Shown here: piece after piece, positions 6,002-24,865 of the stretch
How the letters are laid out: every line of letters begins with the position of its first letter
Numbering within the stretch: position 1 is the stretch's first letter
DNA from: a virus
Reading direction: 5' to 3' (one strand)
DNA: 26,087 bases
IMG/VR virus record: IMGVR_UViG_3300022602_000371
Coordinates: 1 to 26,087 of that record
Notes under the pieces: model-generated
Seen by the model: only the letters and a program-made list of their open reading frames with translations
Databases searched by the model: none
Told to the model about the DNA's origin: nothing
Program-made: the position numbers and the translations under genes

Positions 6002-6011
6002 TTTGTACTCC

Positions 6012-6074: not shown

Positions 6075-6083
6075 ATGACCTCC

Positions 6084-7819: not shown

Positions 7820-8111
7820 TACGAACACTGGCATCCTTACAGTAAACGACAAGGGCGATAACCCTGCGCGCCCTGATCGCAAAGGCTCCATCAATGTTGA
7901 AGGAGTTGAGTATTGGGTATCAGGATGGATCAAGGATGGCCGCGAAGGCACTAAGTTAGAAGGCCAGAAGTACATGAGCCTCAAGCTTGAAAAGAAAGAG
8001 CCGCGCCCTGGATCAATCTACTCACAAGACGCGCAGGCCAACATTGCTGTAGCGCAAGCAGCCCCAAAGCCAGCAGCCCCAGCAGCAGCGGAGGACGATA
8101 TTCCATTCTAA
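7803..8111 (+). CDS. SSB-like protein with acidic DDIPF tail
   Basis: 102 residues from the ATG at 7803, which has AGGA six bases upstream; an ATG two codons earlier overlaps the Shine-Dalgarno. The first 75 residues are beta-rich with basic and aromatic positions (VEYWVSGWIKDGREG), compatible with a short OB-like fold. An Ala/Pro linker follows, then the terminal EDDIPF, which matches the protein-interaction tip of bacterial SSB. It probably coats single strands made by the exonuclease. A CCCAAAG heptamer at 8063-8069 is in the -1 slippery phase and may matter for the next ORF. Confidence 0.7.
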   Translation: MQLYDNTNTGILTVNDKGDNPARPDRKGSINVEGVEYWVSGWIKDGREGTKLEGQKYMSLKLEKKEPRPGSIYSQDAQANIAVAQAAPKPAAPAAAEDDIPF

Positions 8112-8263
8112 GTATTGATGATGACCTTGACAGCGCGGTTGTCAAGGCTGATTCAGCAGCTGAGAAAGTTAAGAAAGAGAAAATTAAAAAGTCTGTAGCT
8201 GGGGTTAAGGCGATGGCGCAATTTAGTAAGGGCTGGTCTGATAGACCAATTAAGTACAGATGA
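8105..8263 (+). CDS. Charged hypothetical protein with no standard start codon
   Basis: Open frame between the stop at 7988-7990 and the TGA at 8261-8263, which overlaps the next ATG as ATGA. The sequence is protein-like (SIDDDLDSAVVKADSAAEKVKKEK... then FSKGWSDRPIKYR), an acidic start followed by a Lys-rich helix. There is no ATG, GTG or TTG at its beginning. The only internal ATG would leave about 16 residues. Either ATT at 8105 is used behind GGAGG (8090-8094), or ribosomes enter from the SSB-like frame by a -1 shift at 8063-8069. I annotate the ATT version. Real gene likely; start uncertain. Confidence 0.5.
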   Translation: MLSIDDDLDSAVVKADSAAEKVKKEKIKKSVAGVKAMAQFSKGWSDRPIKYR

Positions 8264-8418
8264 ATTTAGAAGATATAAAACTAGCACTCATGACGCAAAG
8301 ATCGGCCATCGTTTTCAAAGACGAACCAACCTTGAAAGAGATTGATTTATTACGCAGCATGCTTGAAGGCGTATGCGACAAAATTATTTTGGAGAAATTA
8401 GATGGACACGATAGTTGA
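8260..8418 (+). CDS. 52-residue hypothetical protein
   Basis: Begins ATG at 8260 within ATGA and reads MNLEDIKLALMTQRSAIVFK, then a leucine-rich helical stretch to DKIILEKLDGHDS. It looks like a short helical protein, possibly a small coiled-coil dimer. It overlaps the following HTH gene by 17 bases. No family is recognised. The continuous overlap chain of the operon is the main support. Confidence 0.6.
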   Translation: MNLEDIKLALMTQRSAIVFKDEPTLKEIDLLRSMLEGVCDKIILEKLDGHDS

Positions 8419-8608
8419 GCGATTACGATCTAAGTATGGTGAGCGCATGACATTAGCAGAGTTAAGTAAGGAGTTGCGTATTCCAGTGGAAACACTTCGC
8501 TGGCATCGGCAGCGCGGATCTGAGATTGTCAAAACTCATAGAGTTGGTATGAAGGTATTCGGAATGACTGACGAAGTAGCTAAACACCTGGAGAGTTTCT
8601 ATGAATAA
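8402..8608 (+). CDS. Small HTH DNA-binding protein
   Basis: 68 residues, ATG at 8402 with GGAG seven bases upstream. Residues about 15-45 (MTLAELSKELRIPVETLRWHRQRGSE) form a MerR/AlpA-like helix-turn-helix with a typical recognition helix. The rest is short and basic. This could be a phage excisionase or an early regulator. The gene overlaps its downstream neighbour by eight bases. Confidence 0.7.
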   Translation: MDTIVERLRSKYGERMTLAELSKELRIPVETLRWHRQRGSEIVKTHRVGMKVFGMTDEVAKHLESFYE

Positions 8609-8816
8609 CAATCACATATGGACAAAATCTTCTACTGACATCACCCTGCGCTGGCGCAAGCTTTACGGCTATGTGCCTGCATCGGAGCAGGCCTTCTATC
8701 AACGAAAGTGGAAAGAGTGGCAGGCCTTCTTAAATAGAACACTAGATGATTTAGAAACACCAGAGCCTAGTGGATTAAACGCGCCTATAGCATTGACAAA
8801 ATGGAAACGAAAATGA
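8601..8816 (+). CDS. 71-residue hypothetical protein
   Basis: Trp/Arg/Lys-rich protein (HIWTKSSTDITLRWRKLYGYVPASEQAFYQRKWKEWQAF) followed by a Pro-containing tail. A short region of similar style occurs in uncharacterised phage replication operons. The function is not recognised. Its stop overlaps the RuvC-like start as ATGA, so the two are probably translationally coupled. Confidence 0.65.
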   Translation: MNNNHIWTKSSTDITLRWRKLYGYVPASEQAFYQRKWKEWQAFLNRTLDDLETPEPSGLNAPIALTKWKRK

Positions 8817-9298
8817 ATAAGGTCTTCATTGGAGTTGATCCAGGTTTATCTGGCGCTGTCGCTGCAGTTGATGGCAAGGGTGACTTACTCGCTATCTGGG
8901 ATATGCCTGTGGTTGAAATGAAGGTTGGCTCCAGCATGAAGAAAAGGATCTGCGCTCAATCCCTGGTGAGTGAGTTGCACCTTTTTAAAAATGATGATGC
9001 CTTCGCTCTCATTGAGCAAGTGTCAGCAATGCCTGGCCAGGGCGTTACCTCAATGTTTAATTTTGGTAAGTCAGCTGGAATCCTTGAAGGCATATTCGCT
9101 GGCCTCATTCTTCCTTATGGTCATGTCATTCCTGGTCGATGGAAAAAGCATCACAACTTAAATGCATCTAAAGATGCTGCGCGTGAATTAGCAATGCGCA
9201 CCTGGCCTGCTAAAGCAGATCTATTCAAACGCAAGAAAGATGATGGCCGAGCAGAGGCCGCACTGATTGCCCTCTATTCGAAGCAGATTGCAAAATGA
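8813..9298 (+). CDS. RuvC-like Holliday junction resolvase
   Basis: 161 residues from the ATG at 8813, chosen for its ATGA overlap; a start four codons earlier is possible. It is an RNase H-fold nuclease that cuts branched DNA before packaging. Visible catalytic positions are D9 in GVDPGLSG, E69 in ALIEQV, and D143/D144 with E148 in KKDDGRAEAALIALY. The MPGQGVTSMFNFGKSAGILEGI segment is typical of phage RuvC relatives. It follows the recombination genes in the same operon. Confidence 0.88.
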   Translation: MNKVFIGVDPGLSGAVAAVDGKGDLLAIWDMPVVEMKVGSSMKKRICAQSLVSELHLFKNDDAFALIEQVSAMPGQGVTSMFNFGKSAGILEGIFAGLILPYGHVIPGRWKKHHNLNASKDAARELAMRTWPAKADLFKRKKDDGRAEAALIALYSKQIAK

Positions 9299-9480
9299 CA
9301 GCGCCTAAAAATCCAGACGATGAACTCGGTAAGCATGAGGCTTTCAATTGCTCACTTGATGAGATAGCAAAAGAGATTGGTGTATCGCACCCAACAGTTT
9401 CAAAGATCATTGACAGCGCATTAAAGAAAATTCGCGGGGAGTTGTTAAAGCGCGGCCTGGAAAAGGATGACATCCTGTGA
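9295..9480 (+). CDS. Sigma-70 region 4-like HTH regulator
   Basis: 61 residues starting in ATGA. The core CSLDEIAKEIGVSHPTVSKI followed by IDSALKKIRGELLKRG matches the sigma region 4 helix-turn-helix plus its trailing basic helix. There are no other sigma domains, so it could be a transcription activator or co-factor that redirects host polymerase, perhaps for late genes. It lies near the end of the early operon, where phage late activators often sit. The next gene starts at the overlapping GTGA. Confidence 0.75.
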   Translation: MTAPKNPDDELGKHEAFNCSLDEIAKEIGVSHPTVSKIIDSALKKIRGELLKRGLEKDDIL

Positions 9481-9968
9481 TTGGACCAGAAGTAACGCTA
9501 TCAAAGCATGAGTATTACAAAGCAATGAGAGTCGGCAGCACTAGGGTGCGCGATGTGTTTATTAACTCTCGCGAAGATAAAAAGAAAACACCAGATACTT
9601 ACTTTGTTGAGAATCATATTCTTGGCGCTCTGTGTGAAATGGCCTATGCAAAGTTGATGGGCATACCTTTTAATCCAGATACAAAAATTGGATCAAGGGA
9701 TTTTCCTAACGCTGAGATACGCGGCACGAAGTACACAGGAGGCAAGCTTTTAATGTATGAGTCTGACCTGGACGAAACACCTTATTTTTTAATGGTCCAT
9801 GTAAACCTATTTACATTCGCTTTAGCTGGTGGGGTATATGGCAAAAAAGGTAAACAACAAAAGTATTGGGACGAATCAATGCCAATACCTTGCTTGGCCG
9901 TACCGCAATCTGAATTGGACATATTCCCAGTAGTACCAACGAAACTCAACCCACTGGAGTTTTTCTAA
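9477..9968 (+). CDS. Hypothetical protein, possible PD-(D/E)xK-like fold
   Basis: 163 residues from the GTG at 9477 (GTGA overlap). The order of elements, helix ILGALCEMAYAKLMG, then strand IGSRDFPNAEIRGT, then LLMYESDLDETPYFLMVHV, resembles the alpha/beta core of PD-(D/E)xK nuclease-like phage proteins. The usual E-x-K is replaced here by EIR, so activity is uncertain. It is placed with recombination functions. I cannot name a precise family. Confidence 0.6.
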   Translation: MIGPEVTLSKHEYYKAMRVGSTRVRDVFINSREDKKKTPDTYFVENHILGALCEMAYAKLMGIPFNPDTKIGSRDFPNAEIRGTKYTGGKLLMYESDLDETPYFLMVHVNLFTFALAGGVYGKKGKQQKYWDESMPIPCLAVPQSELDIFPVVPTKLNPLEFF

Positions 9969-10120
9969 TGATCCCTATCCCATTCCTTGGTTGGCTTAAT
10001 CCAGAAGATGAGCCAGATGAGCAGCAGTCGGATTGTAGTAAGTCATTAACTGACGAGGATCTGAGTGCCCTATTATCTTCGCCAGTGACAATACATCCAC
10101 CTTCTGAGCAAGATGAGTAA
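9968..10120 (+). CDS. 50-residue very acidic ORF, antisense to integrase 2 end
   Basis: ATG at 9968 overlaps the previous stop as TAATG. The product starts MIPIPFLGWLNPEDEPDEQQ and ends in PPSEQDE. It has about 13 Asp/Glu and one Lys. Bases 9996-10120 are also the 3' end of integrase 2 on the other strand, so part of its composition may be a shadow of that gene. Coupling and unique upstream sequence argue for a gene; the antisense overlap argues against. Low certainty. Confidence 0.4.
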   Translation: MIPIPFLGWLNPEDEPDEQQSDCSKSLTDEDLSALLSSPVTIHPPSEQDE

Positions 10121-10973
10121 CCGCGGTATGTCTTGCGTCATGGAATCTAAAATCCAATGAAGCCTTGTCCCGATACTTACGGAATAGCGCGTCAAGCGAG
10201 GCGCTCTTTAATCCAAACAATGGGCCATCTGTTTCGGGTAGTAGCTTCAGTAGTCGCAGCGCTTCTTTTGATAGCGGCACTTGGCGCGGTTTTCCATTCT
10301 TGGTTAGTTTCAACTGTGCTACAGGGCCTTCAATATCACCAGGAGCCAGGCCGCAGATCTCGCCTGCTCTCATACCAGTTTCCAGGGCAAACAATAAAGC
10401 CAGGGCAACTCTCTGCGAAACTGATTGAGCCTCGCTGGTTGGTGTGTATGGAATTTGCTGCAGGAATAGATCAATATCCTGTTTGCTTATTAGTTTCTCG
10501 CGATGCGGAGCCTCTTTCGGTTTCTTAACCAGCTTGATAGGGTTGCTTGCAATAAGCCGCCACTCCAGCATGGCCACCTGGAATACTGAAGACAATAGAT
10601 TTAATTCTCGATTGACAGTGCTGCCAGATACTTCCTTTAGTCTGGCATCACGATACTTGGCTATCAGCGGCACATCTATATGGGCGATCTTCTTTCCCTT
10701 GAATGACTCATGCTGGCCTATTGCCTTGAGTCTGATTCGCTCCCAGCGCTCACCTTTCTTCTTGGGTGATACCTCATTAGCATAGCGCTCTAAAACATGC
10801 GACAGAGGCTCTCTGTCATCTATGCCCATGTCGCGAATTTTCTTCAGCTGCAGCTGCTGCTCTGCTGCCCACAACTGCGCTTTTGCTTTAGTGGCAAAAA
10901 CCTTGCTGACTCTGCGCTTTCCAACTTGTAATTGGACGCGCCATTTGTCATCTATTTTTTGGTATGAGGCCAT
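9996..10973 (-). CDS. int: Tyrosine recombinase/integrase 2 (attP-proximal)
   Basis: 325 residues from the ATG at 10973. The frame runs further upstream, but only to a TTG inside the putative arm sites. N-terminal part (SYQKIDDKWRVQLQVGKRRVSKVFATK) is an arm-binding type domain, followed by a core-binding domain and the catalytic domain. All catalytic positions are visible: R202 (TGMRAGEI), Lys in TKNGKPRQV (225/228), H278 and R281 (FHDARHT), H303 (IIGHSD), and Tyr 312 or 313 (LMTYYNP). The tRNA-like attachment core lies 130 bases upstream, so this is the likely integrase. Its 3' end overlaps the converging early operon. Confidence 0.93.
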   Translation of the reverse strand: MASYQKIDDKWRVQLQVGKRRVSKVFATKAKAQLWAAEQQLQLKKIRDMGIDDREPLSHVLERYANEVSPKKKGERWERIRLKAIGQHESFKGKKIAHIDVPLIAKYRDARLKEVSGSTVNRELNLLSSVFQVAMLEWRLIASNPIKLVKKPKEAPHREKLISKQDIDLFLQQIPYTPTSEAQSVSQRVALALLFALETGMRAGEICGLAPGDIEGPVAQLKLTKNGKPRQVPLSKEALRLLKLLPETDGPLFGLKSASLDALFRKYRDKASLDFRFHDARHTAVTHLAQKVDVLSLAKIIGHSDPRQLMTYYNPTAAHLAHLLD

Positions 10974-10987
10974 ATTTTCGTGGGTGA

Positions 10988-11030
10988 TTTGGTGGGAGAA
11001 TATTATCACCAAATACCACTGAATACCACT
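10988..11030. repeat. Candidate integrase arm-type repeats
   Basis: TTTGGTG (10988-10994) and CACCAAA (11007-11013) form an inverted pair. AATACCACT occurs twice at 11012-11020 and 11022-11030 with 10-bp spacing. A further TTTGGTG is at 11185-11191 on the other side of the core. Repeats flanking a core are the expected attP layout. Confidence 0.5.
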
Positions 11031-11101
11031 AATATGGGGGCTGCGTGGGGGGTGGTAAAACCCCTAAAATCGCCCGCTAAGCCTTATAGAATATAGAAAC
11101 A

Positions 11102-11125
11102 TGGTGCCCGAGGCCGGAATCGAAC
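11102..11125 (-). other. attP core matching a tRNA 3' end
   Basis: On the minus strand this reads as the T-loop (TTCGATT), T-stem 3' half (CCGGC), acceptor 3' strand (CTCGGGC), discriminator A and CCA of a tRNA. The sequence 5' of the T-loop cannot pair with CCGGC and no anticodon arm follows, so the tRNA is incomplete. That is how a phage attP looks for integration into a tRNA gene. A GCCCGAG acceptor would suit a Leu- or Phe-type tRNA; I cannot decide which. Confidence 0.75.
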
Positions 11126-11207
11126 TCGACAGAAACCCCTTTATTTATATGGCTCCAAAAATGCTCTGTGCATTTTTTGGGAGATTTGGTGTTATATTAG
11201 CGAAAAG

Positions 11208-11236
11208 CCAGGTAGCGCTAACTACCTGGATTTTCT
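11208..11236 (+). terminator. Hairpin with short T tract (terminator or leader element)
   Basis: CCAGGTAG-CGCTAA-CTACCTGG is a perfect 8-bp stem followed by ATTTTCT. It lies 27 bases upstream of the HNH gene start. A TATATT hexamer at 11193-11198 could be a -10, which would place the hairpin in the HNH leader. It could terminate rightward reading through attP or attenuate the HNH gene. Confidence 0.5.
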
Positions 11237-11262
11237 AAACAAGTAAGCCGAAAGGGGCCTAA

Positions 11263-12210
11263 ATGTCTGACCAGATTATCTCATCAAAAATATGCCTTGA
11301 GTGCAGGCTTGAAAAGCCAACGGCAGAATTTAAAATAAAAGATTCAAATAAAACCACAATCGGCAAGTGGCTTGCCAGGTGCGTTATCTGCCAGCCTAAG
11401 TACGAAAAAGAACTTAGGGAAAAAACTAAAGAGCAGAGGGCTGCAAAAAATAAAGCCTATAGGGATGCCAATAAAGAAGAGTTAAAAGAAAAACGGAAGG
11501 CTCAAATAGCGCGGGACAAGGACGCAGTTTCAGCCAGGCGAAAATCTATAAGGTCAAGACCAGAAGTAAAACAGAAAGAGGCCGAATATAGAAAAAGGTA
11601 CCTTCAAGAAAATCCAGAAAAGTGCCGAGAATCAGCTAGAAAATGGCATGAGAAAAACAGGGACTACTGTTTGCAGAGAATCAAAGAGTGGAGAGAGAAT
11701 AATTTTGAGCATAGAATGGCGTGGCAGAAAAATTACCTGAAAAAAAATAAGGCTGTTTTAAAACAAAAAACAGATTTATGGAAAAAAAATAATAAAGACA
11801 AAGTTAGGGAAAGCACAAGAAATCGGTGGAATAAAAGAATGTCTAGCGATCCATTCTTTAAGTTAAAAACTAATTTAAGAGGCCTGATCTCTACAGGATT
11901 CACTAGGCGGGGTTATTCAAAATCTTCAAAAACTTGTGAAATTCTTGGTGCTGATTTTGAGGTGGTTTTTAAGCATATTGAATCTCAATTTAAAGATGGT
12001 ATGAACTGGGAAAATCGCGAAGAATGGCATATTGACCATATCATTCCGTTGGCATCAGCTAAAGATGAGAAATCTTTAATAGCGCTTAACCATTACAAAA
12101 ATTTAAGACCTCTATGGTGTTTTGATAATTTATCTAAACATGCTCAAATGCCATCCAATGATGAGATCGCAGGCTATGGCCTGGAAGACTTGTACAAGTT
12201 GGTGGCTTAA
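11263..12210 (+). CDS. HNH endonuclease with zinc-ribbon and long charged linker
   Basis: 315 residues, ATG behind AAAGGGG. The N-terminus has two Cys pairs (CLEC and CVIC) resembling a zinc ribbon. About 150 residues of Lys/Glu/Arg-rich helix follow, with repeated K-x-W-x-x-x-N-type segments. The C-terminal nuclease (about 253-292) shows EEWHIDHIIPLASA, then LNHYKNLRPLWCFDNLSKHA, a standard HNH pattern. It is visibly more A-rich than its neighbours, stands alone on the plus strand between attP and the late operon, and has its own terminator, all suggesting a recently acquired moron or homing-type gene. Confidence 0.85.
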   Translation: MSDQIISSKICLECRLEKPTAEFKIKDSNKTTIGKWLARCVICQPKYEKELREKTKEQRAAKNKAYRDANKEELKEKRKAQIARDKDAVSARRKSIRSRPEVKQKEAEYRKRYLQENPEKCRESARKWHEKNRDYCLQRIKEWRENNFEHRMAWQKNYLKKNKAVLKQKTDLWKKNNKDKVRESTRNRWNKRMSSDPFFKLKTNLRGLISTGFTRRGYSKSSKTCEILGADFEVVFKHIESQFKDGMNWENREEWHIDHIIPLASAKDEKSLIALNHYKNLRPLWCFDNLSKHAQMPSNDEIAGYGLEDLYKLVA

Positions 12211-12216
12211 TTGGTT

Positions 12217-12290
12217 GGGGCTGGACATGCGGTTTGGCGTCTAATAAGGCTATGCCTTATGGTTGCCTCGTTGATGCCAGCCCCATTTTT
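12217..12290 (+). terminator. Branched hairpin terminator after HNH gene
   Basis: GGGGCTGG (12217-12224) pairs with CCAGCCCC (12277-12284), followed by ATTTTT. Inside is ATAAGGC-TAT-GCCTTAT (12244-12260), and GGCGTC/GATGCC can add pairs. The outer stem with its T tract suits a terminator for the HNH gene. The structure overlaps the 3' end of the converging desaturase gene. The multi-branched form is more elaborate than usual. Confidence 0.6.
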
Positions 12291-12955
12291 CTCGCGACCT
12301 GGATATAAAAATAACCCAGGTCAAACCTATTTGGATCAAGAGGTATTCTAGCACTGCCAGGCCTAATATGATGGTCCTTGTGCAGATTGTCTGTCAGCAA
12401 AACTGCGTCCAGCCAATTGATATTTCTGATCTCTGGATAGTGGCAAAAACCAGTCACAACAGCATTTGATAGTAATGGCGTATGTGCCGACTGAATTATC
12501 CATATCAGCAACCCCCACCACCCAAAGAGGGCCACATCAATTGCGCCCAGGACTAAGATCCCTAGCCTGAGATATTTGGTGTATAGATTGCGCTCTAGCC
12601 AGTCATCTGGGCAGCCCTTACCGAAGAAATCAATTTTCTCCTGGTCATTCCAGTGTGGCATGTTGTAGCGGAAAAATAGATTGTAGAAAAATCCTTTAAA
12701 AGCTATCTGCCAGATACCTTGCAGCTGCGGAGAATGTGGGTCCCCCTCTATGTCTGTAAATAGGTGGTGAACGCGATGCTGTGATACCCATTTTTTTGTA
12801 GACACACCATCAAACCAGGTAATCACCCTAAAAAAGTAAGTTGCTCCAGGACTCCAAGTAACCGCTTTATGAGCCAAGCCGCGATGCAGATATAGACATG
12901 TATTGACCATCAAAAGATGAGTAGTCAATACAGTCCATAAAGCAGCCCAGATCAA
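12257..12955 (-). CDS. Membrane fatty acid (acyl-CoA type) desaturase
   Basis: 232 residues from the TTG at 12955, which overlaps the lipoprotein stop as TTGA; the first internal ATG is 15 codons later. It has the three histidine boxes of the membrane di-iron desaturases: HRGLAH (H24-H29), HRVHH (H60-H64) and HKDHH (H192-H196), with hydrophobic spans between them. These enzymes insert a cis double bond into fatty acyl chains using O2 and an electron donor. It is shorter than many bacterial relatives but the core appears complete. It is the last gene of the late/lysis operon and lies close to attP, so it would sit near a prophage end. This is an unusual host-metabolism gene for a phage. Confidence 0.88.
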   Translation of the reverse strand: MIWAALWTVLTTHLLMVNTCLYLHRGLAHKAVTWSPGATYFFRVITWFDGVSTKKWVSQHRVHHLFTDIEGDPHSPQLQGIWQIAFKGFFYNLFFRYNMPHWNDQEKIDFFGKGCPDDWLERNLYTKYLRLGILVLGAIDVALFGWWGLLIWIIQSAHTPLLSNAVVTGFCHYPEIRNINWLDAVLLTDNLHKDHHIRPGSARIPLDPNRFDLGYFYIQVARKMGLASTRQP

Positions 12956-13146
12956 GCCTCTACCTCTTGCCCCGATGGCGTGAAGAGTTGCCCTGGGCAG
13001 TTATAGATGATTGCAGTGCCATCATCCATGTGCTTAATACAAGTGGGCGCCTTCACTGGCCTTTGAGTGCCTCTAAGATAGCGGTACTCTCCTGGAGGGG
13101 TCGTGCTGCACCCCGCTAAGAAAATTACAAGCATGAGCGCTTTCAT
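12952..13146 (-). CDS. Small outer-membrane-type lipoprotein
   Basis: 64 residues with a lipobox: MKALMLVIFLAGCSTTPPG, lipidated Cys at 13. The mature part is polar with two further Cys (PTCIKHMDDGTAIIYNCPGQ), possibly a disulfide in the periplasm. It is coupled by ATGA to the preceding membrane protein gene and by TTGA to the desaturase. It is separate from the Rz1 lipoprotein upstream. Function unknown; its place in the lysis cassette hints at envelope disruption or superinfection control. Confidence 0.7.
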   Translation of the reverse strand: MKALMLVIFLAGCSTTPPGEYRYLRGTQRPVKAPTCIKHMDDGTAIIYNCPGQLFTPSGQEVEA

Positions 13147-13763
13147 CTTTTCTCAGTCAGCATGTCTGCTGCTATGGTTAGATAATTCACTGGGTCTTCT
13201 TTTGGTTGCGTCTTCCAGCCTATAGTGACCTGGCCTATAAACTCATTAGGTGTTGGCGGCACTGAGATACGGCACATGTATGCCGTTGGTCCAAGTCTTC
13301 CGACATAGAAAAAACCTAATTCAGATTGCGGGTAGTTGTAAGCGCTACAAGGCACTTCACCAGCCATAAGGTGGATGACATCCTGGTTGTTTTCTTTGTT
13401 GCCATTAAAGAGTGGGATCTTCATGCCATCCATGTCTTTAGCCCTGGACATATCCTTGTTATAGACCCGCACTACTTTGCGATAGCCCACAATAGGATCA
13501 ACATCTAAGATCGCTACCAGGTCAGCACCAGTTGCTTTAAACAGAAGCTGCGCAGCATCATCCATCCTGGAGTAATCCATCTTTGGAAGAGTTTGATTCT
13601 TCTGGTAAGCACCGATGAGTAGAGCCTGGTTGGAGTAGATGAAATATCCACAGAATGACAGCACACCCAGGAAGGCAATCGCTGCCACCTTCCAGGGTTT
13701 GTCAATGTATTGCAGCAGGGAGTCAAAGGCGCCCTTGAGTTGTGATTGATCTACTTCGGCCAT
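13143..13763 (-). CDS. Single-TM periplasmic protein; possible T4-like holin
   Basis: 206 residues. About 24 cytoplasmic residues, one TM span (about 25-45, VAAIAFLGVLSFCGYFIYS), then a 160-residue soluble domain expected in the periplasm. The size and topology match class III (phage T4 T-type) holins, although I see no direct sequence match. The soluble part (LLFKATGADLVAILDVDPIVG) has a GAF-like look. It lies in the lysis cassette after the spanins, and no other holin candidate is visible there, while the endolysin has no signal peptide. The holin call is therefore positional inference. Confidence 0.55.
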   Translation of the reverse strand: MAEVDQSQLKGAFDSLLQYIDKPWKVAAIAFLGVLSFCGYFIYSNQALLIGAYQKNQTLPKMDYSRMDDAAQLLFKATGADLVAILDVDPIVGYRKVVRVYNKDMSRAKDMDGMKIPLFNGNKENNQDVIHLMAGEVPCSAYNYPQSELGFFYVGRLGPTAYMCRISVPPTPNEFIGQVTIGWKTQPKEDPVNYLTIAADMLTEKR

Positions 13764-13996: not shown

Positions 13997-14234
13997 TGTT
14001 TAGACTCCGAGTAATGTTGGTCTGGGTGGTTTGTTTTGCTGCTTTAAGTTGCTCGTATTGCGTGGAGATAGCATTCTCCCTGGCGATGGCGGCGTCATGC
14101 TCTGCAGTTGCCTGCTGATTTAATTCAAGTTCTCGCTCCATCCACTTGGCCCTTTCAACTTTCTGACCAGTGAAAAATATCGCCAGCACTGCAATCACGA
14201 TTGCAGCGATCTTGCCAAGTAGGATTGGGTTCAT
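13848..14234 (-). CDS. Rz: Rz-like inner-membrane spanin
   Basis: 128 residues: N-terminal TM anchor (about 5-22, LLGKIAAIVIAVLAIFFTG), then a long charged helix likely to be coiled coil (VERAKWMERELELNQQATAE...). The start overlaps the endolysin stop as ATGA. The C-terminal third is encoded by DNA shared with Rz1. Length and layout are normal for i-spanins. Confidence 0.85.
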   Translation of the reverse strand: MNPILLGKIAAIVIAVLAIFFTGQKVERAKWMERELELNQQATAEHDAAIARENAISTQYEQLKAAKQTTQTNITRSLNNEIKTNSSAYACVIPLDGVRLLTQAANIANGSASQPGSAMPENRSATTK

Positions 14235-14848
14235 GCTGTCATTACCTCCAGGGCTGCTTTGTAGTTTGCTGTGCGCTCATCAATGCCAACTAAGCCGCCA
14301 TTGATAATCTTTGTGCATGCAGTGCAATCACTTGCATGGTCATTAAGGTTGTGCGATTTCCAAAAGAATGCAGCCGATAAAGCAGCCACAGCAGCCTGGG
14401 CCACGATGTCTGGTGTATCCATAATCTCTGGCATATTCAATGCGTCAGCCAATGCCTGGTAGTTAGAACGGCCAGTAGTTTGGAAGTAGCCGCGCCCAAT
14501 AAACTTAAACCCATCACCAGAGGCCTCACCCTGGTTACCCATACGATCACCATAAACATGGTTTGCGAATGCTTGTGGATTGTGTTCGTAAGGCATTGCG
14601 CTTTCTACTGTCGGGAATCTTTTTGGCCAGATAGCATGTAGGCGATCAGCGCGATAGTTAAGACCTTCAGAGGTATGCAAAAACTTGCCAGATTCATGTG
14701 ATGCCTGCGCTAAAAATTGAGCAACTTGCTCTGCGCTTTCAATGCCAAACTTATTGCAGGCATCTTCTAAAGATTGTGCAACTCGGTCAGCTGTGGCCTG
14801 GTCAGCAAGGCCTGCTTTTACTAATTGATCTGGGGTTATAGTAGGCAT
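14231..14848 (-). CDS. GH19 chitinase-like endolysin
   Basis: 205 residues. It is a muramidase-type phage endolysin of the glycoside hydrolase 19 fold. Visible family signs are FLAQASHESGKF with catalytic Glu 52 and the second Glu 61 (TSEGLNY), then WPKRF, NHVYGDRMGN and the substrate-cleft GDGFKFIGRGYFQTTGRSNY. The first 40 residues are a helical cap (TPDQLVKAGLADQATADRVAQ). No signal peptide, so a holin is needed. AAGGA upstream lies inside the end of the preceding oxygenase gene. Confidence 0.93.
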   Translation of the reverse strand: MPTITPDQLVKAGLADQATADRVAQSLEDACNKFGIESAEQVAQFLAQASHESGKFLHTSEGLNYRADRLHAIWPKRFPTVESAMPYEHNPQAFANHVYGDRMGNQGEASGDGFKFIGRGYFQTTGRSNYQALADALNMPEIMDTPDIVAQAAVAALSAAFFWKSHNLNDHASDCTACTKIINGGLVGIDERTANYKAALEVMTA

Positions 14849-14850
14849 GA

Positions 14851-15630
14851 TTATTTTCCTTTCGTTACGAATTGTTGGCGTACTGCTTCAAATTTCTCCA
14901 GCAACTCAGGACTAATCACTGCTTGATCAATTCCTTTTCGCATGTCTGCTGCCAGGGATTCAAGCTGGGTAATATCGCCGTCATAGTGGAAGGTCTTGGT
15001 GTTTTTACCGACATCGTAAAAATCCATGATGAGGTGGTAGCGATCTTGGTCGCTGTCGTTGCGGATCTGGTGGTAACGATTGACCCACACTGCATAAGCT
15101 TTACCAGCCTCTTTGTGTAGGTGAACTCCATCACAGATATAAACGCATTTAGGATTTGTGATTAAGGGGATATGCAGCCTGGCCATGTAATCACCAAAGC
15201 CAGCATCGCTGTGAACCATTGACTTGGCACCAGCTTTCAAACAAGTAACACGCGCCCTGCGTGGATACATTCCCAGGGCAGTCAATTTAATGAGTAATGA
15301 TGCAAACTCACCTACATAGGCTGCAGTAGGTTTATCGCACTCCATTGAGTGATTGATTCCAAAGAATTTAAGGGCCTCATAGTTTGGGCCATTGCGCTGA
15401 CTAAAGATGTCTAAACGGCCATCGTTATCGTTGTCGTGGAAGACATCAAAACCATCGCGCCAATCACCAGTGCGTGAAGTAACACTCCAACCACCAAAAC
15501 CGAAATAAGCAGGAGTTTCATAATCTTCACCTTGGACTACCTGGCTGCCTAATGGCATGATGCGCTCCTGGAGGTCCTTCACTAGGGCTGCATGATCAAA
15601 TTTTAGAAAATCCAACTCTTCATAAAACAT
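14851..15630 (-). CDS. Aspartyl/asparaginyl beta-hydroxylase-like 2OG oxygenase
   Basis: 259 residues. The cupin core is visible from residue 125: MVHSDAGFG gives Fe ligands H140 and D142, RLHIPLITNP follows with R151, then VNRYHQIRNDSDQDRYHLIMDFY with distal ligand H187 and a 2-oxoglutarate-binding Arg at 197. This order fits the Asp/Asn beta-hydroxylase family, which hydroxylates Asp or Asn side chains, in animals within Cys-rich EGF domains. The N-terminal 120 residues are not recognised. The gene overlaps the next oxygenase gene by 11 bases. A peptide substrate in the neighbouring Asn-Cys protein is an inference. Confidence 0.82.
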   Translation of the reverse strand: MFYEELDFLKFDHAALVKDLQERIMPLGSQVVQGEDYETPAYFGFGGWSVTSRTGDWRDGFDVFHDNDNDGRLDIFSQRNGPNYEALKFFGINHSMECDKPTAAYVGEFASLLIKLTALGMYPRRARVTCLKAGAKSMVHSDAGFGDYMARLHIPLITNPKCVYICDGVHLHKEAGKAYAVWVNRYHQIRNDSDQDRYHLIMDFYDVGKNTKTFHYDGDITQLESLAADMRKGIDQAVISPELLEKFEAVRQQFVTKGK

Positions 15631-16162
15631 GGTTGGCCTCTAGCATTTTGATTACCTGGTCATAGGTGTGGCTTGCAGTTGCCAGCTGCGCAGCAATTCT
15701 TACTTTGTCGGTTTGCGGTTTGACTGAGTGAGGGATCGTGACATTGAGGACCCAGGCTTCGCCTTCTTGGGCGCAGAAGCTGCCGACTTCGCAGAGGTCT
15801 TCTTCTTCGTAGATACGACCTTCTTCGTGCTGGTTTTCAATGGTGTATGTTTTGGGGTTATCGGTTTTGGCTCTATAGAAGCGGGTGCTGCAGCCATCGG
15901 TTTTGATATAAAAATTGATTGCAGCTTTGATACCAGAGTCTGTATGAGGGGGTACATTTGTATTGATCTCCACTATGGATAAACAAAAGTCTTTCCGATA
16001 CTGCTCTGGAATGACCGCTAATAATTCGTCAGCATTTTCTATGTCGGCGTAGTGATAATGAAGACCTCTAAAGACTCCATCTTCTACATTCCCACACTTA
16101 AATTGAGTGCCTGTATACACATGGTTTTGCACCTGTATAGGAAAAGCCAGTTTTCTATACAT
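15620..16162 (-). CDS. 2OG-Fe(II) oxygenase (second)
   Basis: 180 residues. VPPHTDSGIKAAINFYI gives H73 and D75 of the iron site. VTIPHSVKPQTDKVRIA gives the distal H145 and the co-substrate Arg 155. This is the small double-stranded beta-helix oxygenase pattern also seen in phage and peptidyl hydroxylases. It has six Cys, possibly by chance. It overlaps both flanking oxygenase genes, which suggests joint production. The substrate is unknown; protein hydroxylation is the favoured guess from the neighbourhood. Confidence 0.78.
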   Translation of the reverse strand: MYRKLAFPIQVQNHVYTGTQFKCGNVEDGVFRGLHYHYADIENADELLAVIPEQYRKDFCLSIVEINTNVPPHTDSGIKAAINFYIKTDGCSTRFYRAKTDNPKTYTIENQHEEGRIYEEEDLCEVGSFCAQEGEAWVLNVTIPHSVKPQTDKVRIAAQLATASHTYDQVIKMLEANHVL

Positions 16163-16799
16163 TTTTCAAACTCTTCATGGCATCTGTCCAGGATTTGATA
16201 ACCATCGCATTGGGCGCGTCTGCGTCCACTACCTGGCGCATATCTGCAGATATAGAAACACGCAGCTGCTCTGACTCATTCTTCATGACTTCGTGCAGCA
16301 CATAGGATGGGAATATGACCAGCTTGCCGTCTTGAGGCTCTATGTGTTTAAAGTTACCGCTATCACCATTGAATAAGCCGTTGCTATCCATCATGTGGCG
16401 GGTGGAATAAATCACCATGTCACCGCAATACTTTGGGGCCTTCACATAGTAGGTGGCCACCAGGCTGCAGTCATTATGGCCATGCGCCTCAATACTCTCT
16501 CCAGGGCCTTTGACATTGACCCAGCCAAGTGAGTATTCAAGCTTGATATTAAGATCGCGAACCTCTTCAATATCACCAAAAACACATTCGTAGGATTTCT
16601 CCAGAATGTAAGCCTTCAACTTATCCAGGTTAGGCCTGGAGTAATCCCATAAACTGGTCTTAACATTAGCATCAATACCAGAAGAGATCCAGGCGCCAAC
16701 ATCTGCAATCTCTTGCATTAGGGTGGCGTTGAATTGATCGTCAAACCCAGTGTCAATCTCCCACACTGGGCTTAACCACCATTGGCTAAGTAATGCCAT
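16155..16799 (-). CDS. 2OG-Fe(II) oxygenase (third, PF13759/TIGR02466-like)
   Basis: 214 residues from the ATG at 16799, chosen for AAGG nearby and because the 38 upstream codons overlap the preceding gene out of frame. Motifs: HGHNDCSLVATYYVKAPKYC (iron site H108/D110 within H-x-D), PQDGKLVIFPSYVLHEV (distal H169) and EQLRVSISADMR (Arg 180). This matches the putative 2OG oxygenase family found in many phages near structural genes. It differs clearly from the other two oxygenases here, so the three are not simple duplicates. Confidence 0.85.
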   Translation of the reverse strand: MALLSQWWLSPVWEIDTGFDDQFNATLMQEIADVGAWISSGIDANVKTSLWDYSRPNLDKLKAYILEKSYECVFGDIEEVRDLNIKLEYSLGWVNVKGPGESIEAHGHNDCSLVATYYVKAPKYCGDMVIYSTRHMMDSNGLFNGDSGNFKHIEPQDGKLVIFPSYVLHEVMKNESEQLRVSISADMRQVVDADAPNAMVIKSWTDAMKSLKNV

Positions 16800-17130
16800 T
16801 GTTCGCCTTGCGCTCTGCTGCCTTGCGAGCCTTCCACTCGTCATAGCATTTAATGATTGGGCAGTCATACTCAAAATCAATGCCAGGATGTGGATTAGCA
16901 TTAGCCGCTGCAAAGCGCTTGCCTTGAATATGCTCCAGGATGTCCATGCCTGGTACGAATAGCTGCTCTAGTACATCGGCGTAATCGTTGAGCATCTGCA
17001 TGGCGCGATCACGATCTTTATCGGATAGCCCTAGCATCTTGTTAGGGATCTCAATATCCAAGTAGTGGATCGCATGCTTGCGATAAAGGTCTAACTCTTC
17101 ACCAGTATTAAATTGAAGTGTGGACGGCAT
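16786..17130 (-). CDS. Small hypothetical protein of the modification cassette
   Basis: 114 residues from the ATG at 17130, which has GGAGAG four bases upstream; an ATG at 17142 would place the ribosome site inside the gene. It is helical and acidic (KDRDRAMQMLNDYADVLEQLFVPGM), with a C-terminal basic tail (DEWKARKAAERKA). There is no known domain or TM. It overlaps genes on both sides, between the Asn-Cys-rich protein and the third oxygenase. It could be a substrate-binding partner (RRE-like role) or structural protein. Unknown. Confidence 0.65.
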   Translation of the reverse strand: MPSTLQFNTGEELDLYRKHAIHYLDIEIPNKMLGLSDKDRDRAMQMLNDYADVLEQLFVPGMDILEHIQGKRFAAANANPHPGIDFEYDCPIIKCYDEWKARKAAERKANNGIT

Positions 17131-18001
17131 TTTTCTCTCCATGTAAAAGTTTGTCGATTGCTACCACTGCACTAGCAGTCCAATGGCTTAAATAGAAAGC
17201 AGCCCACATTGCGTAAAGCACTGGCAAGCGATGGCGCTTGTTCTTATCTCTCACGCGTGGAATCTTGTCCAAAAAGCGACAAATAGGTACTCCAATAGCC
17301 ATAAGCACACGACCACGAAGATTGTCATTACTGACAGCGCCCATAAGATAAGCCATGTGTAGACTCCAAGGACTACCAATATTGAGAGCCATTCTTGTGA
17401 TTGCTTTCTTCTGCGCCTCATTGCGTTTGTCATCGTCTTTAATCCAAAACATAAAGGTTGGACCTTTGCCATCCATCCAGGCGGTAACGATTCGCGCCCA
17501 GCGAATGTAGCCACGATAGACAGCTTTGTCATTCTTGTAGAGCCACTTGCCGTAGGCTTGGTCAGCAGCGAAAATCTTTGCCGACATCAAACCTTTGTCA
17601 TGCAGCTTAGAGCAGATGATCTTGCTGCAATTACACGCGCAGTTACAGTTGTAGCTAACTTCACCAGTAACGCAGTTGTACCCAGCTGGGCCACAGTTGC
17701 CGCCTGGCTGCAGATATGGTTTGTCATCACAATTCACGCAGTTGGTATAGCCAGCAATTAAGCAGTTAGTACATTGAATGTTGCCGCAGTTGCAGTTGCT
17801 TGTGCAGTTGCCATTCTCACAATTGCCCTCAGTAGTATTCTGAAAATAATTCATGCCGTAGAAGGCAGACAGGCGTGGTGGGTTAGATCGTAGTGATGGC
17901 TTAATTTCGTTTTTTAGCCACTCTAATCCTGTAGGGCCACCATGCCCGATCTCTGCATTTACTGTACTAATGCCAATGGCACCACCGCCTGGAGTTGTCA
18001 T
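17108..18001 (-). CDS. Asn-Cys-rich virion-type protein, candidate modification substrate
   Basis: 297 residues. The N-terminus (GAIGISTVNAEIGHGGPTGLEWLKNEI) resembles a motif common at the start of phage tail-associated proteins. Residues 60-130 hold 15 Cys, 12 of which directly follow Asn. The C-terminal half (MSAKIFAADQAYGKWL..., MDGKGPTFMFWI) is a pattern I associate with uncharacterised phage proteins next to tail genes, and ends in a hydrophobic, possibly membrane-seeking stretch (VLYAMWAAFYLSHWTASAVVAI). The start is 2 bases after the radical SAM stop with GAGGG upstream. The Cys block could bind metal, form disulfides, or be enzymatically crosslinked or hydroxylated by neighbours. Function inferred only. 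Confidence 0.7.
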   Translation of the reverse strand: MTTPGGGAIGISTVNAEIGHGGPTGLEWLKNEIKPSLRSNPPRLSAFYGMNYFQNTTEGNCENGNCTSNCNCGNIQCTNCLIAGYTNCVNCDDKPYLQPGGNCGPAGYNCVTGEVSYNCNCACNCSKIICSKLHDKGLMSAKIFAADQAYGKWLYKNDKAVYRGYIRWARIVTAWMDGKGPTFMFWIKDDDKRNEAQKKAITRMALNIGSPWSLHMAYLMGAVSNDNLRGRVLMAIGVPICRFLDKIPRVRDKNKRHRLPVLYAMWAAFYLSHWTASAVVAIDKLLHGEKNAVHTSI

Positions 18002-18003
18002 GC

Positions 18004-19389
18004 TTATACCCTCACTTCGTTAATAGGAATGATCTTGCGTACTACTTTTTCTTGATGCTCAAATTGATTACCGAATACATCCTGGCGCTCTAGTGGCAGC
18101 CCTTCACCATCGATGCGAACTGGTATGTATCCAGTCATGTTGTTGAAGGCCAGAGCGAAGTGAACTAAGTTGTCGCTGTAAGCATTCGCGCAGCTGGTAT
18201 CCCAATATTCACCCTCTAAGAACATGCATGCGCCCTGGCATAAATGCAGCACTGGGCATGATGGACAATCCTTTCGATGCGACCAGTGAGTAGCAGTGTT
18301 TAACTTCACATTGGAGTAGTCATCCAGGGTGCCAATCTTGTGTGATTCGCCATTCATGGCCGTTTCGTTAGAAGACACATTCTGGCAAGTGATTACATTG
18401 CCAGTCAGATCAACCGCTAAAACATTCTTCTGATCCATGCCACACTTTTGGCCTAATCCATCAGCATGGGCGTGGCCCAATACGGCCTTAGTGAAATTGT
18501 TGATTTTGTTGATCTGCATCTTGAATGGTGACTGACCATCTACTGAGAAAATGTCAGCAAAGGCCTTACGCCTAAATGCAAAATGCTCTTCTTTGGTTTG
18601 CAGGGAATTCTGTAGGCCATCCTGGTCATACGCATCTACCAGGCTGCCTTCGCCCAGGGAGATATTCTCATCGCCTGTCAATTCAATAAACCAATCACCA
18701 ATTTCTTTGCGACTGTTATTACGGCGCGATAGCATAGAGTTAAAAGAGATCCCCTTGCCCAGGCGCGTCATCATGCGATAAAAACCTAAGATAGTTTCTT
18801 TTTTCTCTGGATCATCAAAAGGGTCTGGGCCGCGTACAAATTGACCTGGGCCATCGTGACTGATAGACACAGCAAAGTTGTGCATCATCAGAAAATCAAT
18901 GATGTCATCATCAAGCAGGCTGCCGTTAGTGATCAGCGAGAACTTTGGCTTATCCTTCCAGGACTCAAAGCGGGCCTCAATAGCCTCTACTAATGGCTTT
19001 AATGTCTTGATGTAAGCAAGCGGCTCACCACCCCAATATTCAACACGAAGACCCTCTTCTTCCGAGAACTCCAGGACATTTAATTTTTCAATAAATGGCC
19101 CAATGTCTTTAGCGGTTGTTGATTCGCCTTTTTCTACAAATCTCTGGCTGCAATATTCGCAGCTGTAATTACATTCCAGGCCTAATTGAATCTTTAGGTG
19201 TGTAATGTGATTTGATTTAGCGCCAGGGGTTTCTTTTGACACAATTTGAATGTCATTAGAGGTTTGTACTGATCCATCTGAAAACTCAAATACTGCGCCG
19301 TCATCACTCTTTAAATAGTTGGTGATGTTGTCGTATGTGAATGACTTCTTTTCGCCAGTTGGTTTTTCTGCGTGGATAGTGAATAGCAT
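18004..19389 (-). CDS. Radical SAM/SPASM peptide-modifying enzyme
   Basis: 461 residues. Radical SAM cluster motif CNYSCEYC (C73, C77, C80) with WGGEP at 119-123. The C-terminal SPASM domain has the full set: C316, C335 (GNVITC), C375-x2-C378-x5-C384-x3-C388 and C400, enough for two auxiliary 4Fe-4S clusters. This layout is that of anaerobic sulfatase-maturing enzymes and RiPP maturases, which oxidise or crosslink residues in protein or peptide substrates. The first 60 residues are an extra N-terminal domain that may bind the substrate. The gene lies 17 bases after the tail fibre gene and 2 bases before the Asn-Cys-rich gene. No exporter or protease is nearby, so a virion substrate is more likely than a secreted peptide. 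Confidence 0.92.
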   Translation of the reverse strand: MLFTIHAEKPTGEKKSFTYDNITNYLKSDDGAVFEFSDGSVQTSNDIQIVSKETPGAKSNHITHLKIQLGLECNYSCEYCSQRFVEKGESTTAKDIGPFIEKLNVLEFSEEEGLRVEYWGGEPLAYIKTLKPLVEAIEARFESWKDKPKFSLITNGSLLDDDIIDFLMMHNFAVSISHDGPGQFVRGPDPFDDPEKKETILGFYRMMTRLGKGISFNSMLSRRNNSRKEIGDWFIELTGDENISLGEGSLVDAYDQDGLQNSLQTKEEHFAFRRKAFADIFSVDGQSPFKMQINKINNFTKAVLGHAHADGLGQKCGMDQKNVLAVDLTGNVITCQNVSSNETAMNGESHKIGTLDDYSNVKLNTATHWSHRKDCPSCPVLHLCQGACMFLEGEYWDTSCANAYSDNLVHFALAFNNMTGYIPVRIDGEGLPLERQDVFGNQFEHQEKVVRKIIPINEVRV

Positions 19390-19406: not shown

Positions 19407-20087
19407 TTAGTTGTAAGCAACAATGTCACCAGCAGCGGTGACAGAGTTAAATCTGACATCAGCGCCAAGTGATGCTTTGCCGTTTTGTAGGTCAGTGATA
19501 TTGCTATCGTGAGTACCAAGGCGAGTTTCAGCAGCTGCCATACGAGCCTCTAAGTTGTCGCATCGTGTTTGTAGTGCAGCAATTGCAGCGCCGTTAGCTG
19601 CCACATTGGCATTGGTTACAGCCAATTCAGCTACTAGGGAATCAATACGAGCATTAGCAGCAATGATCTCGGAGTTAAGAGAATCACCACCAGAGTTGAT
19701 CATTAGCTCCAAAGCAGAGGCACAGTCATCTACATATCGTTTTGTAGAGAATGATTCTGGCAAAGTTGGATCAATTCCTGCGAAATAAGAACCACTAATT
19801 TCGAAAATCTCAATGCCCTGGACAGCAAAACCCACTACACCAGAAGACTTTCTAAAAAATCCAGTAGATGGCTCCAGGGTGAAAGAAAGACCTGGAGCGC
19901 CCAGCACACCATCGTATAACTTGAATGGCGCTTTCATTCCATTGGTGCCGTTGGTATCTAACGCGTCTGACATAGCAGTCGCAATGTCATCCATCGTAGT
20001 GTTGGCCCAATCGGATTCAATCACAGTGCCAGTGGCTACTGGATTACCAATCGGTAGTGAGAATTTTCCTGTTGAATTGCGTGGCAT
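19407..20087 (-). CDS. Tail fibre protein, lacking a C-terminal chaperone domain
   Basis: 226 residues, AGGAG upstream of the ATG. N-terminal module (STGKFSLPIGNPVATGTVIES... ATAMSDALDTNG) is typical of phage tail fibres. A 140-200 coiled coil (ELMINSGGDSLNSEIIAANARIDSLVAEL...) suits a trimeric shaft. The protein ends at ADVRFNSVTAAGDIVAYN, where related fibres usually continue into SDRRLK and an S74 chaperone domain. That domain is found instead in the gene at 23492-24865. It has two Cys (near 130 and 170). The radical SAM gene follows at once. Confidence 0.75.
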   Translation of the reverse strand: MPRNSTGKFSLPIGNPVATGTVIESDWANTTMDDIATAMSDALDTNGTNGMKAPFKLYDGVLGAPGLSFTLEPSTGFFRKSSGVVGFAVQGIEIFEISGSYFAGIDPTLPESFSTKRYVDDCASALELMINSGGDSLNSEIIAANARIDSLVAELAVTNANVAANGAAIAALQTRCDNLEARMAAAETRLGTHDSNITDLQNGKASLGADVRFNSVTAAGDIVAYN

Positions 20088-23491: not shown

Positions 23492-24865
23492 TTATACCCC
23501 TAAAAGTTTGCTGTAATTAACCATCAAGTAACCAGAGTCAGCCTTCTTAACAGCATCTGGATACACCTTTGCTACCTCATCGGCCATCACACCAATTTCT
23601 TTGGTCTGGGAGCCAAGATACCTAAACTCATACACATTCAATTTGCCCATGTGCATCGTGCCTACTTTGCGGATGTCGCGCTTTAAGCGGCGGTCAGAGA
23701 AACCGAACATGGAAGCAGCTTGCAAGCCTGTACCAAGTAGGCCCATAGCACCCTGCTGATTGTTGTTGTTATAGGCATTAGTAGCATTAGCCTGGTCTTG
23801 ATTGAACGCAGCCTGATTTTGTGCAGCGCCTGTGTAGTTCACGCCGCCGTACTGAGTAGCAGTGTTGAATGTCGGCATGTTAGGCATCGATACTTGCTGA
23901 CCACTCATGAGTGCATTCATGTTGTTGAGCATGTTGTTTTGATTCTGTACTTGCTCACCAACTTGTGCCTGGCGTAATGTATTTTGGTAATTAGACTGAC
24001 CAATGGCTTGCTGATAAGCCTGCTGCTGAGCAGTGTTGGCGTTATTGATAGCAGTGTTACCGAATGTGCCTGCAGACTGGCTCATATTCTGCTGATTCAT
24101 GAGTGCAGCATTCTGAGCATTCATCTGACTCACATCCATACCCTGTAACGCGCCAGCAGCTGCGATACCGCCCTGTGTTGCGCTATTCATAGCCTGGTTG
24201 TAGGCGTCATTCTTCTGGAATGCGAAGTTGTTTTGCGCTCTGTTGTACGCATTGGAATTACGGCTAATGCCTTGCGCTGCCAGCTTTGCATCCAGGTCGC
24301 TTTGACCTTGTTGGAATCGTGGGTCCAGGCGGGATGTTGCCTGGTTATAAATAGAATTAGCTACAGGTTGATACATACCAGATCCACCAATGCCAGTAGT
24401 TTGCATTTGGTTGGCGTTATTCATCGCCGACATCTGGTAATTAGTATTAACTCCTGGGCCTGTGTAACCCTGGCCCCACTGAGATACCTTGCTGTAATCA
24501 ATTGGAGTAGAGATTGCAGCGCCAGCATTAGGCATTAAATTGAGCGCAATATCAGAGCGCCCATTTTGCATGGATAGCTGTGAATTTAGAGCCTTTTGAG
24601 CATCTGGAGTCAGACTGGTATTTTGTGTCCAGTTGGTAACGGCCTGGCCTGTAGCTGGATCAGTACCAGCAGATGCCTGCCATGATTGCTGACCCCAAGG
24701 AGTATTGATTGTGGGTCTATTTGCCCAGGTATTCGCGGTTGCCGCTTCTTTGTTTGACTGAGCAGTTGCCTGCGCTGCGCCAGTATAGTCTGGTGTCGCT
24801 GGAGTTGCTGGCCCACTGCTGCCGCCGCTAAATAAATTACCTACTGCATTGACTATGCCGCCCAT
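23492..24865 (-). CDS. Structural protein with C-terminal S74 chaperone domain
   Basis: 457 residues, GGAG eight bases upstream. The first 380 residues are extremely Asn/Gln/Ala/Gly-rich with many YxNxx-type segments, expected to be an extended or coiled-coil structure. The C-terminus (about 386-457), FSDRRLKRDIRKVG... then KEIGVMADEVAKVYPDAV..., is the intramolecular chaperone (Peptidase_S74) domain, with the Ser-Asp self-cleavage site at its start. Its position after the gp10-like gene suggests a tail needle or tail-tip role. Such domains assemble trimeric fibres and are then cut off. Confidence 0.8.
   Translation of the reverse strand: MGGIVNAVGNLFSGGSSGPATPATPDYTGAAQATAQSNKEAATANTWANRPTINTPWGQQSWQASAGTDPATGQAVTNWTQNTSLTPDAQKALNSQLSMQNGRSDIALNLMPNAGAAISTPIDYSKVSQWGQGYTGPGVNTNYQMSAMNNANQMQTTGIGGSGMYQPVANSIYNQATSRLDPRFQQGQSDLDAKLAAQGISRNSNAYNRAQNNFAFQKNDAYNQAMNSATQGGIAAAGALQGMDVSQMNAQNAALMNQQNMSQSAGTFGNTAINNANTAQQQAYQQAIGQSNYQNTLRQAQVGEQVQNQNNMLNNMNALMSGQQVSMPNMPTFNTATQYGGVNYTGAAQNQAAFNQDQANATNAYNNNNQQGAMGLLGTGLQAASMFGFSDRRLKRDIRKVGTMHMGKLNVYEFRYLGSQTKEIGVMADEVAKVYPDAVKKADSGYLMVNYSKLLGV

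Follow-up and report, generated by a model that had tools for sequence, protein, structure and literature searches.

The 26-kb IMG/VR virus record analysed here (IMGVR_UViG_3300022602_000371, 26,087 nucleotides; hereafter the window) carries six tightly packed genes on its minus strand, encoding a radical S-adenosylmethionine (SAM) enzyme with a SPASM domain, an Asn-Cys-rich (NC) protein, a 118-residue protein (SM) and three 2-oxoglutarate (2OG) oxygenases (OX1, OX2 and OX3). These genes probably constitute a phage-borne maturation cassette, similar to those of ribosomally synthesised and post-translationally modified peptides (RiPPs), whose substrate would be the NC-rich stretch in a tail-fibre-type virion protein. 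At the level of sequence, the SPASM enzyme and an NC-rich sequence are nearly obligate partners in phages and prophages that are unrelated to one another; as in RiPP clusters, a maturase is encoded beside a dedicated substrate and the two are conserved as a pair. Both the chemistry and the virion location of the NC protein are ones that we infer. The window cassette is one elaborate form of a wider SPASM-NC system, which no curated family was found to cover. The genes concerned are as follows.

18004..19389, minus strand: radical SAM/SPASM enzyme, 461 residues, phrog_1802-like, with CxxxCxxC and a complete seven-Cys SPASM domain
17108..18001, minus strand: NC (Cys-Asn) protein, 297 residues, the proposed substrate, in three modules, with 74 viral relatives
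17828..18001, minus strand: N-terminal module of the NC protein, residues 1-58 (MTxPxSGxIxxSDINxEIG...FYGxxYFQN)
17627..17824, minus strand: NC-rich region, residues 60-125, the proposed modification site, with 14 of the protein's 16 Cys
17252..17626, minus strand: core of the C-terminal helical domain of the NC protein, residues 126-250, also present on other phage proteins after Gly-rich stretches
16786..17142, minus strand: SM, small protein of 118 residues, conserved in the cassette, no family match
16155..16799, minus strand: OX1, 2OG-Fe(II) oxygenase (PF13759/TIGR02466, phrog_81), with conserved H106xH108...H169...R180
15620..16162, minus strand: OX2, 2OG oxygenase-like, with invariant H73xD75...H145...R155
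14851..15630, minus strand: OX3, Asp/Asn beta-hydroxylase superfamily (PF05118), with conserved H140xD142...H199
12257..12955, minus strand: desaturase homologue, membrane di-iron protein with conserved His boxes, inside the cassette in relatives
19407..20087, minus strand: fibre-like gene directly upstream of SPASM, with a coiled coil and weak tail/adhesin PHROG matches
14231..14848, minus strand: endolysin, GH19-type (phrog_181), 2 bases downstream of OX3

The gene order on the minus strand is fibre-like gene, SPASM, NC, SM, OX1, OX2, OX3 and endolysin, with spacings of +2, -35, -14, -8, -11 and +2 bases from SPASM to endolysin. The initial annotation had described six genes with 2-base gaps or overlaps between the tail fibre and the endolysin, and we recovered all six at that position; the gene upstream of them is fibre-like by weak matches only. 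The range that it gave to the cassette (14851-19389) covers the six genes but misses the desaturase homologue, which lies outside it. In relatives, one desaturase gene or two lie between the SPASM and NC genes, or the gene is placed among those for the oxygenases, and this position inside the cassettes is the reason why we count it as part of the system.

The pairing of SPASM with NC sequence was assessed in both directions, with counts that come from collections sampled by similarity and refer to the matches listed, among which related loci are not independent; they are not prevalence estimates. Viral contigs were searched for DNA able to encode NCNCxCNC, and a match above 60 bits was taken as SPASM. 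The motif was inside an open reading frame (ORF) in 69 loci, and SPASM was present in 45 of these, on the same strand in 45/45. Where the DNA pattern fell outside an NC-reading ORF, SPASM was found in 1/50 loci (Fisher p 7e-14), and in this single locus the motif is within ~50 bases of the contig end, where the gene may be cut off. Among NC-encoding ORFs of at least 75 residues without SPASM, 14/15 have less than 2.5 kb of downstream DNA. For the opposite direction, the SPASM enzyme of an Achromobacter phage served as query and the SPASM alignment was run against bacterial genomes, loci being chosen regardless of NC. A CxCxC protein, usually a fibre-type C-terminus, was encoded within 4.5 kb upstream in 78 of the 86 loci with at least 3 kb of upstream DNA. 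Two of the eight misses hold such a sequence: the motif is in another frame of a frame-shifted copy in L202 (loci are numbered with an L), and a short CDCVCACNC stretch with no ORF called stands beside SPASM in L212. In the tails derived from genomes, Asn precedes 57% of the Cys, with 2 as the commonest Cys spacing. The prophage-like hosts of SPASM included Limnohabitans, Polynucleobacter, Paraburkholderia, Burkholderia paludis, Thalassobacter, Magnetospirillum and Bradyrhizobium. In two Magnetospirillum loci (L291 and L294), tails of the form YCSYCSYCTCACSDCSC replace the NC repeats beside the same SPASM family. In L093 and L192, Cys-rich repeat proteins (TCQGCQTCQGCQKCQ in L093) with a terminal NC tail are encoded in the vicinity of two different radical SAM genes, and these loci may be a subtype of their own.

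The initial annotation had reasoned that its proposal would weaken if most relatives carried SPASM without the NC protein or the oxygenases. This is not the case, as the pairing holds in both search directions and every window-type locus with enough downstream DNA has at least two 2OG oxygenases (52/52; desaturase in 25/52). The C-terminal domain of the NC protein was also found without NC sequence, in 30 loci, where it generally follows a Gly-rich stretch in a large phage protein, and none of the 30 has SPASM, 2OG or desaturase genes; in cyanophage SynMITS9220M01, the domain follows a Pro/Arg-rich stretch. Short NC proteins lacking this domain retain SPASM. The partner enzymes thus follow the NC sequence and not the attached domain. 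SM was considered as a partner of the C-terminal domain and rejected, since it has no homology to the small proteins that trail free-standing copies of the domain; a family search with SM gave no match (best PHROG E = 0.011).

Searches with the NC protein matched 74 viral loci, and with the window and its own record counted, the clusters hold 76 records for NC, 71 for SPASM, 63 for SM, 62 for OX2, 58 for OX3, 56 for OX1 and 31 for the desaturase; many of these records are fragments, and the OX1 counts come from all-against-all clustering. The profiles used for the oxygenases derive from these loci themselves, and more distant types may have escaped them. Contigs bearing the cassette range from a few kb to 357 kb, so it is not tied to one phage type. 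No near match to the window was found among 50,697 phage records.

In residues 59-130 of the NC protein, Asn precedes 12 of 15 Cys, a number reached by 0/20,000 shuffles of the segment, which upholds the Asn-Cys enrichment noted in the initial annotation. Across relatives, 75% of the Cys in the NC region have Asn before them. The N-terminal module also occurs in short NC proteins (L072-L074, L154 and L173). Structure prediction gave a helical C-terminal domain (predicted local distance difference test, pLDDT, ~85) and a disordered NC region in its unmodified form (pLDDT ~30); the predicted disorder fits a segment that needs covalent shaping, and is not proof of it. A fold search of the predicted NC protein in the PDB returned no match with E up to 0.001, and searching PDB sequences with the NC profile likewise gave nothing meaningful. 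The initial annotation had drawn an analogy to AspH-type hydroxylation of Cys-rich domains. We dropped this analogy, as the consensus for hydroxylation of epidermal growth factor (EGF)-type domains, Cx[DN]x4[FY]xCxC, is present in only 2/58 NC proteins.

In most phages, the NC sequence forms the last residues of a fibre-type protein, often of 200-600 residues (for example ...RYNCNCDCNCC-stop). The NC proteins of two relatives (L079 and L090) match tail-fibre families, while those of L072 and L134 gave no family match in the tail-fibre homology check. Directly after the NC motif stands a Hint domain in Achromobacter phage 2-1, an S74 chaperone in L147 and the helical domain in the window. Hint and S74 domains can self-cleave, so the NC stretch would often end up as the fibre terminus; that the helical domain of the window acts like Hint and S74 is a guess.

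The SPASM enzyme of the window has the radical SAM motif CxxxCxxC at C73/C77/C80 and auxiliary Cys at C316-x13-G-x4-C335, C375xxC378x5C384x3C388 and C400. The full set of seven auxiliary-cluster Cys, as reported in the initial annotation, is present, and these Cys and those of CxxxCxxC are all invariant across 23 aligned relatives down to 42% identity. The TIGR04085 SPASM domain was matched above its cut-off (33.4 vs 27). The nearest curated models are PapB, a ranthipeptide maturase, and QhpD (TIGR03906; 81.5 bits, below the cut-off of 453), both formers of Cys thioethers; the anSME model TIGR03942 was also matched below its cut-off (64 vs 349 bits). Solved relatives nearest to the enzyme include the SCIFF maturase CteB and anSME. 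Asp277 of anSMEcpe, which follows auxiliary-cluster Cys276 and which we take to be the catalytic base, aligns with Gln336, invariant in the SPASM family of the window; anSME-type (formylglycine) chemistry was set aside on this ground. On the SPASM tree, the window type is a single, well-supported clade (Shimodaira-Hasegawa-like approximate likelihood ratio test, SH-aLRT, 99).

Three non-identical Fe/2OG oxygenases, one of the Asp/Asn beta-hydroxylase type, had been proposed, and two of them pass family cut-offs: OX1 that of PF13759 (67.4 vs 27) and the curated cut-off of TIGR02466, and OX3 that of PF05118 (40.6 vs 22.6). OX2 remains below the PF05118 cut-off (18.7 vs 22.6) and has the invariant HxD...H...R. 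The start of OX1 is the ATG at 16799 and not the upstream TTG at 16913 of the ORF list. An OX3 search of the phage collection found none.

Other loci carry other enzymes around the same pair. In prophages, a protein here called INT stands between fibre and SPASM in 46/57 loci, with a confidently predicted, beta-rich and Ig-like-looking C-terminal domain, and a 2OG oxygenase is nearby in 38/57, often between fibre and SPASM. Short NC proteins that end in ...CACACW, or have FW before S74, came with a tryptophan halogenase (PF04820) in 15/15 non-identical loci, against 0/112 of the others; the L072 halogenase matches PF04820 with E 3.7e-96. An independent-pairs approach to Trp tail and halogenase yielded too few independent events. 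Trp-ending cassettes often add a second radical SAM enzyme, in which Pfam shows the radical SAM domain only and which we read from its sequence as B12-type; a B12-type radical SAM search of the phage collection found none. The L072 cassette (5420-13234) consists of a 2OG-like gene, a B12-type radical SAM, a short NC protein, SPASM, a 230-residue protein, two 2OG oxygenases, a tryptophan halogenase and an S74-type fibre. In Bradyrhizobium hipponense (L283:5564-9200), a desaturase-like membrane protein is encoded between the NC tail (ACACDCNCNCG) and SPASM and seems to have been recruited independently.

Halogenase genes were also seen in two further phages. In cyanophage S-SRM01 (L337, MW015081.1 35686-48852, at 5995-8576), a 'gp37-gp38 adhesin tip complex' gene has a flavin-dependent halogenase gene immediately upstream. 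The adhesin gene product is rich in Cys and Trp (NWWGNCWWEASQW) and then becomes Gly-rich, and its fibre tip may be one that is halogenated with no SPASM involved. Pelagibacter phage HTVC008M (L336, KC465899.1 56829-72085) has a tryptophan halogenase and several 2OG/phytanoyl-CoA dioxygenase-like genes in or beside its neck/tail/terminase region. Elsewhere in the window, two different phage integrase genes (5081-6058 and 9996-11012) and a repressor-like gene (4058-4651) make the phage look temperate, and a virion structural protein (phrog_6121) at 23492-24865 has S74-like sequence at its end (SDRRLKRDIRKV...).

Several observations weigh against a cassette that modifies a fibre-type virion protein. 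The window enzyme reaches none of the curated RiPP-maturase cut-offs (PapB, NF047865, 91.2 bits vs a cut-off of 340), the pairing of enzyme and substrate rests on co-location, and no 2OG match was obtained by profiles in 19/57 prophage loci. The link between Trp tail and halogenase reflects one or two origins on the SPASM tree and is clade-level, not repeated, evidence. The NC protein of the window matched no fibre family, so that relatives and gene order are the grounds for placing it in the virion, and the desaturase and PF05118 families also include lipid-modifying enzymes. The proposal of the initial annotation that the gene products together modify a virion protein is partly supported: NC proteins elsewhere are tail-fibre proteins, so that a putative modified virion part near the fibre tip is the best reading.

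The oxygenases and the desaturase might instead act on host lipids or lipopolysaccharide (LpxO-like and desaturase-like), for example blocking superinfection, which would leave the SPASM-NC pair as the only modification system. PF05118 indeed includes lipid A hydroxylases, and PF00487 was matched by the desaturase homologues. Phage 2OG genes usually carry the label of auxiliary metabolic genes, which is also given to the 2OG oxygenases of 76/153 and the tryptophan halogenases of 20/153 cyanophage genomes (PMC10452541). However, the OX genes share the overlapping operon in all 52 complete relatives and are in none of the 30 loci with the C-terminal domain alone, the desaturase-like gene of B. 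hipponense stands between NC tail and SPASM, and 2OG genes of prophages are often located between fibre and SPASM; we consider such a division of labour unlikely. A different product is conceivable if SPASM turned fibre-tip Cys into aldehydes able to bind the host covalently. Such formylglycine-type chemistry would suit the presence of anSME among the few solved relatives, the annotation of the Achromobacter phage JWF copy as anSME and the complete set of seven SPASM Cys, but the Gln at the Asp277 position and the many tandem Asn-Cys, unlike a single formylglycine site, speak against it, and we rate it as very improbable.

We give equally little credence to the NC protein as the precursor of a diffusible RiPP (a bacteriocin or signal) that is carried by phages and is not part of the virion. 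NC proteins of ~130 residues beside SPASM, halogenase and B12-type radical SAM do resemble a natural-product cluster, yet most NC motifs terminate longer fibre-type proteins, some with tail-fibre homology, the genes are flanked by tail and lysis genes, S74 and Hint domains occur on the proteins, and no exporter or peptidase was noticed in the cassettes. It is hardly probable, finally, that the NC tail serves to bind metal or Fe-S at the tip and that SPASM, acting on another target, is loosely linked to it: alternating Cys are plausible metal ligands and the predicted structure leaves the NC region disordered, but the association of SPASM and NC is tight in both directions.

For maturation of a fibre-type NC protein, known systems suggest a chemistry. 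Ranthipeptide maturation (PapB/freyrasin, NxxcA and SCIFF/CteB) likewise has a SPASM enzyme beside a Cys-rich substrate, PapB is the nearest NCBIfam model, and Asn and Asp are known thioether acceptors: in NxxcA, Cys23 is joined to the C-beta of Asn20, and freyrasin has six thioether links to Asp (PMC8326336). Here, in contrast, the substrate is a phage fibre-type protein, its Cys region is C-terminal or internal with dense Asn-Cys dipeptides, the partners are 2OG, desaturase and halogenase enzymes, and scores are below curated cut-offs. QhpD, which matures quinohemoprotein amine dehydrogenase, is similar in being a SPASM enzyme whose Cys thioethers are made in a functional protein and not a secreted peptide, although the window enzyme is far below its cut-off, in a phage context and paired with a repeated NC motif. 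With anSME, it shares the SPASM architecture and the seven auxiliary Cys but not the Asp277 position, and there is no sulfatase. AspH (PF05118) is comparable to OX3, which is above the family cut-off and has the HxD...H triad, but the candidate substrate has no EGF consensus. The phrog_1802 'radical SAM domain-containing protein' of Achromobacter phages JWF and 2-1 is a 42% identical SPASM near the endolysin, with an NCNCDCNC fibre protein two genes upstream; unlike the window, these phages have no window-type NC protein, a Hint domain follows the NC motif and no 2OG match is nearby.

In the proposed mechanism, SPASM would abstract hydrogen from Asn (or a neighbour) and form bonds between Cys sulfur and carbon; the several thioether links made in this way, at C-beta or C-alpha, would turn a disordered Asn-Cys tail into a compact, protease-resistant tip. 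Multiple thioethers from Cys to Asn (or a neighbour) are the likeliest product, because the nearest models form Cys thioethers and Asn is a known acceptor in NxxcA; alpha links are also possible. OX1-OX3 would then most likely hydroxylate residues in or near the NC tail, Asn being the natural candidate, and the desaturase homologue would contribute further oxidation, while in related cassettes the terminal Trp would be the target of the halogenase. A role in folding or processing is proposed for the C-terminal helical domain, as for Hint and S74 in the same position, with the modified NC stretch left as the end of the fibre. What the phage would probably gain is a stable or chemically diversified host-contacting tip.

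The initial annotation knew of no described phage system with this gene set, and we likewise found no report of phage fibre modification by radical SAM enzymes in the open-licence literature (preprints excluded). To our knowledge, phage virion proteins are not known as radical SAM substrates. Host-recognition islands of pelagimyophages differ by 'radical SAM' cassettes with no assigned function (PMC7029224). We take the system as a variant of RiPP-like maturation that may, in phage biology, be a new kind. It is wider than the initial annotation had it, as it includes the desaturase, and variants with halogenase, a second, B12-type radical SAM, Hint or S74 occur elsewhere. The evidence leaves us evenly balanced on a broader proposal, namely a general system that builds receptor-contacting fibre tips post-translationally, in which SPASM cross-links the Asn-Cys tail, an interchangeable set of further enzymes (oxygenases, desaturases, halogenases and B12-type radical SAM) diversifies it, and some phage 2OG and tryptophan-halogenase genes filed as auxiliary metabolic are virion-modifying. 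Cultured strains of Limnohabitans, Thalassobacter stenotrophicus and Magnetospirillum carry the system in apparent prophages, and a testable role would fall to those oxygenase, halogenase and desaturase genes of phages whose function is unclear. If the reading is true, a large family of peptide-modifying enzymes would work at protein scale, and phage fibre tips would bear cross-linked, hydroxylated or halogenated residues invisible to sequence-based and unmodified structure prediction, with a bearing on host range and on the interpretation of fibre structures.

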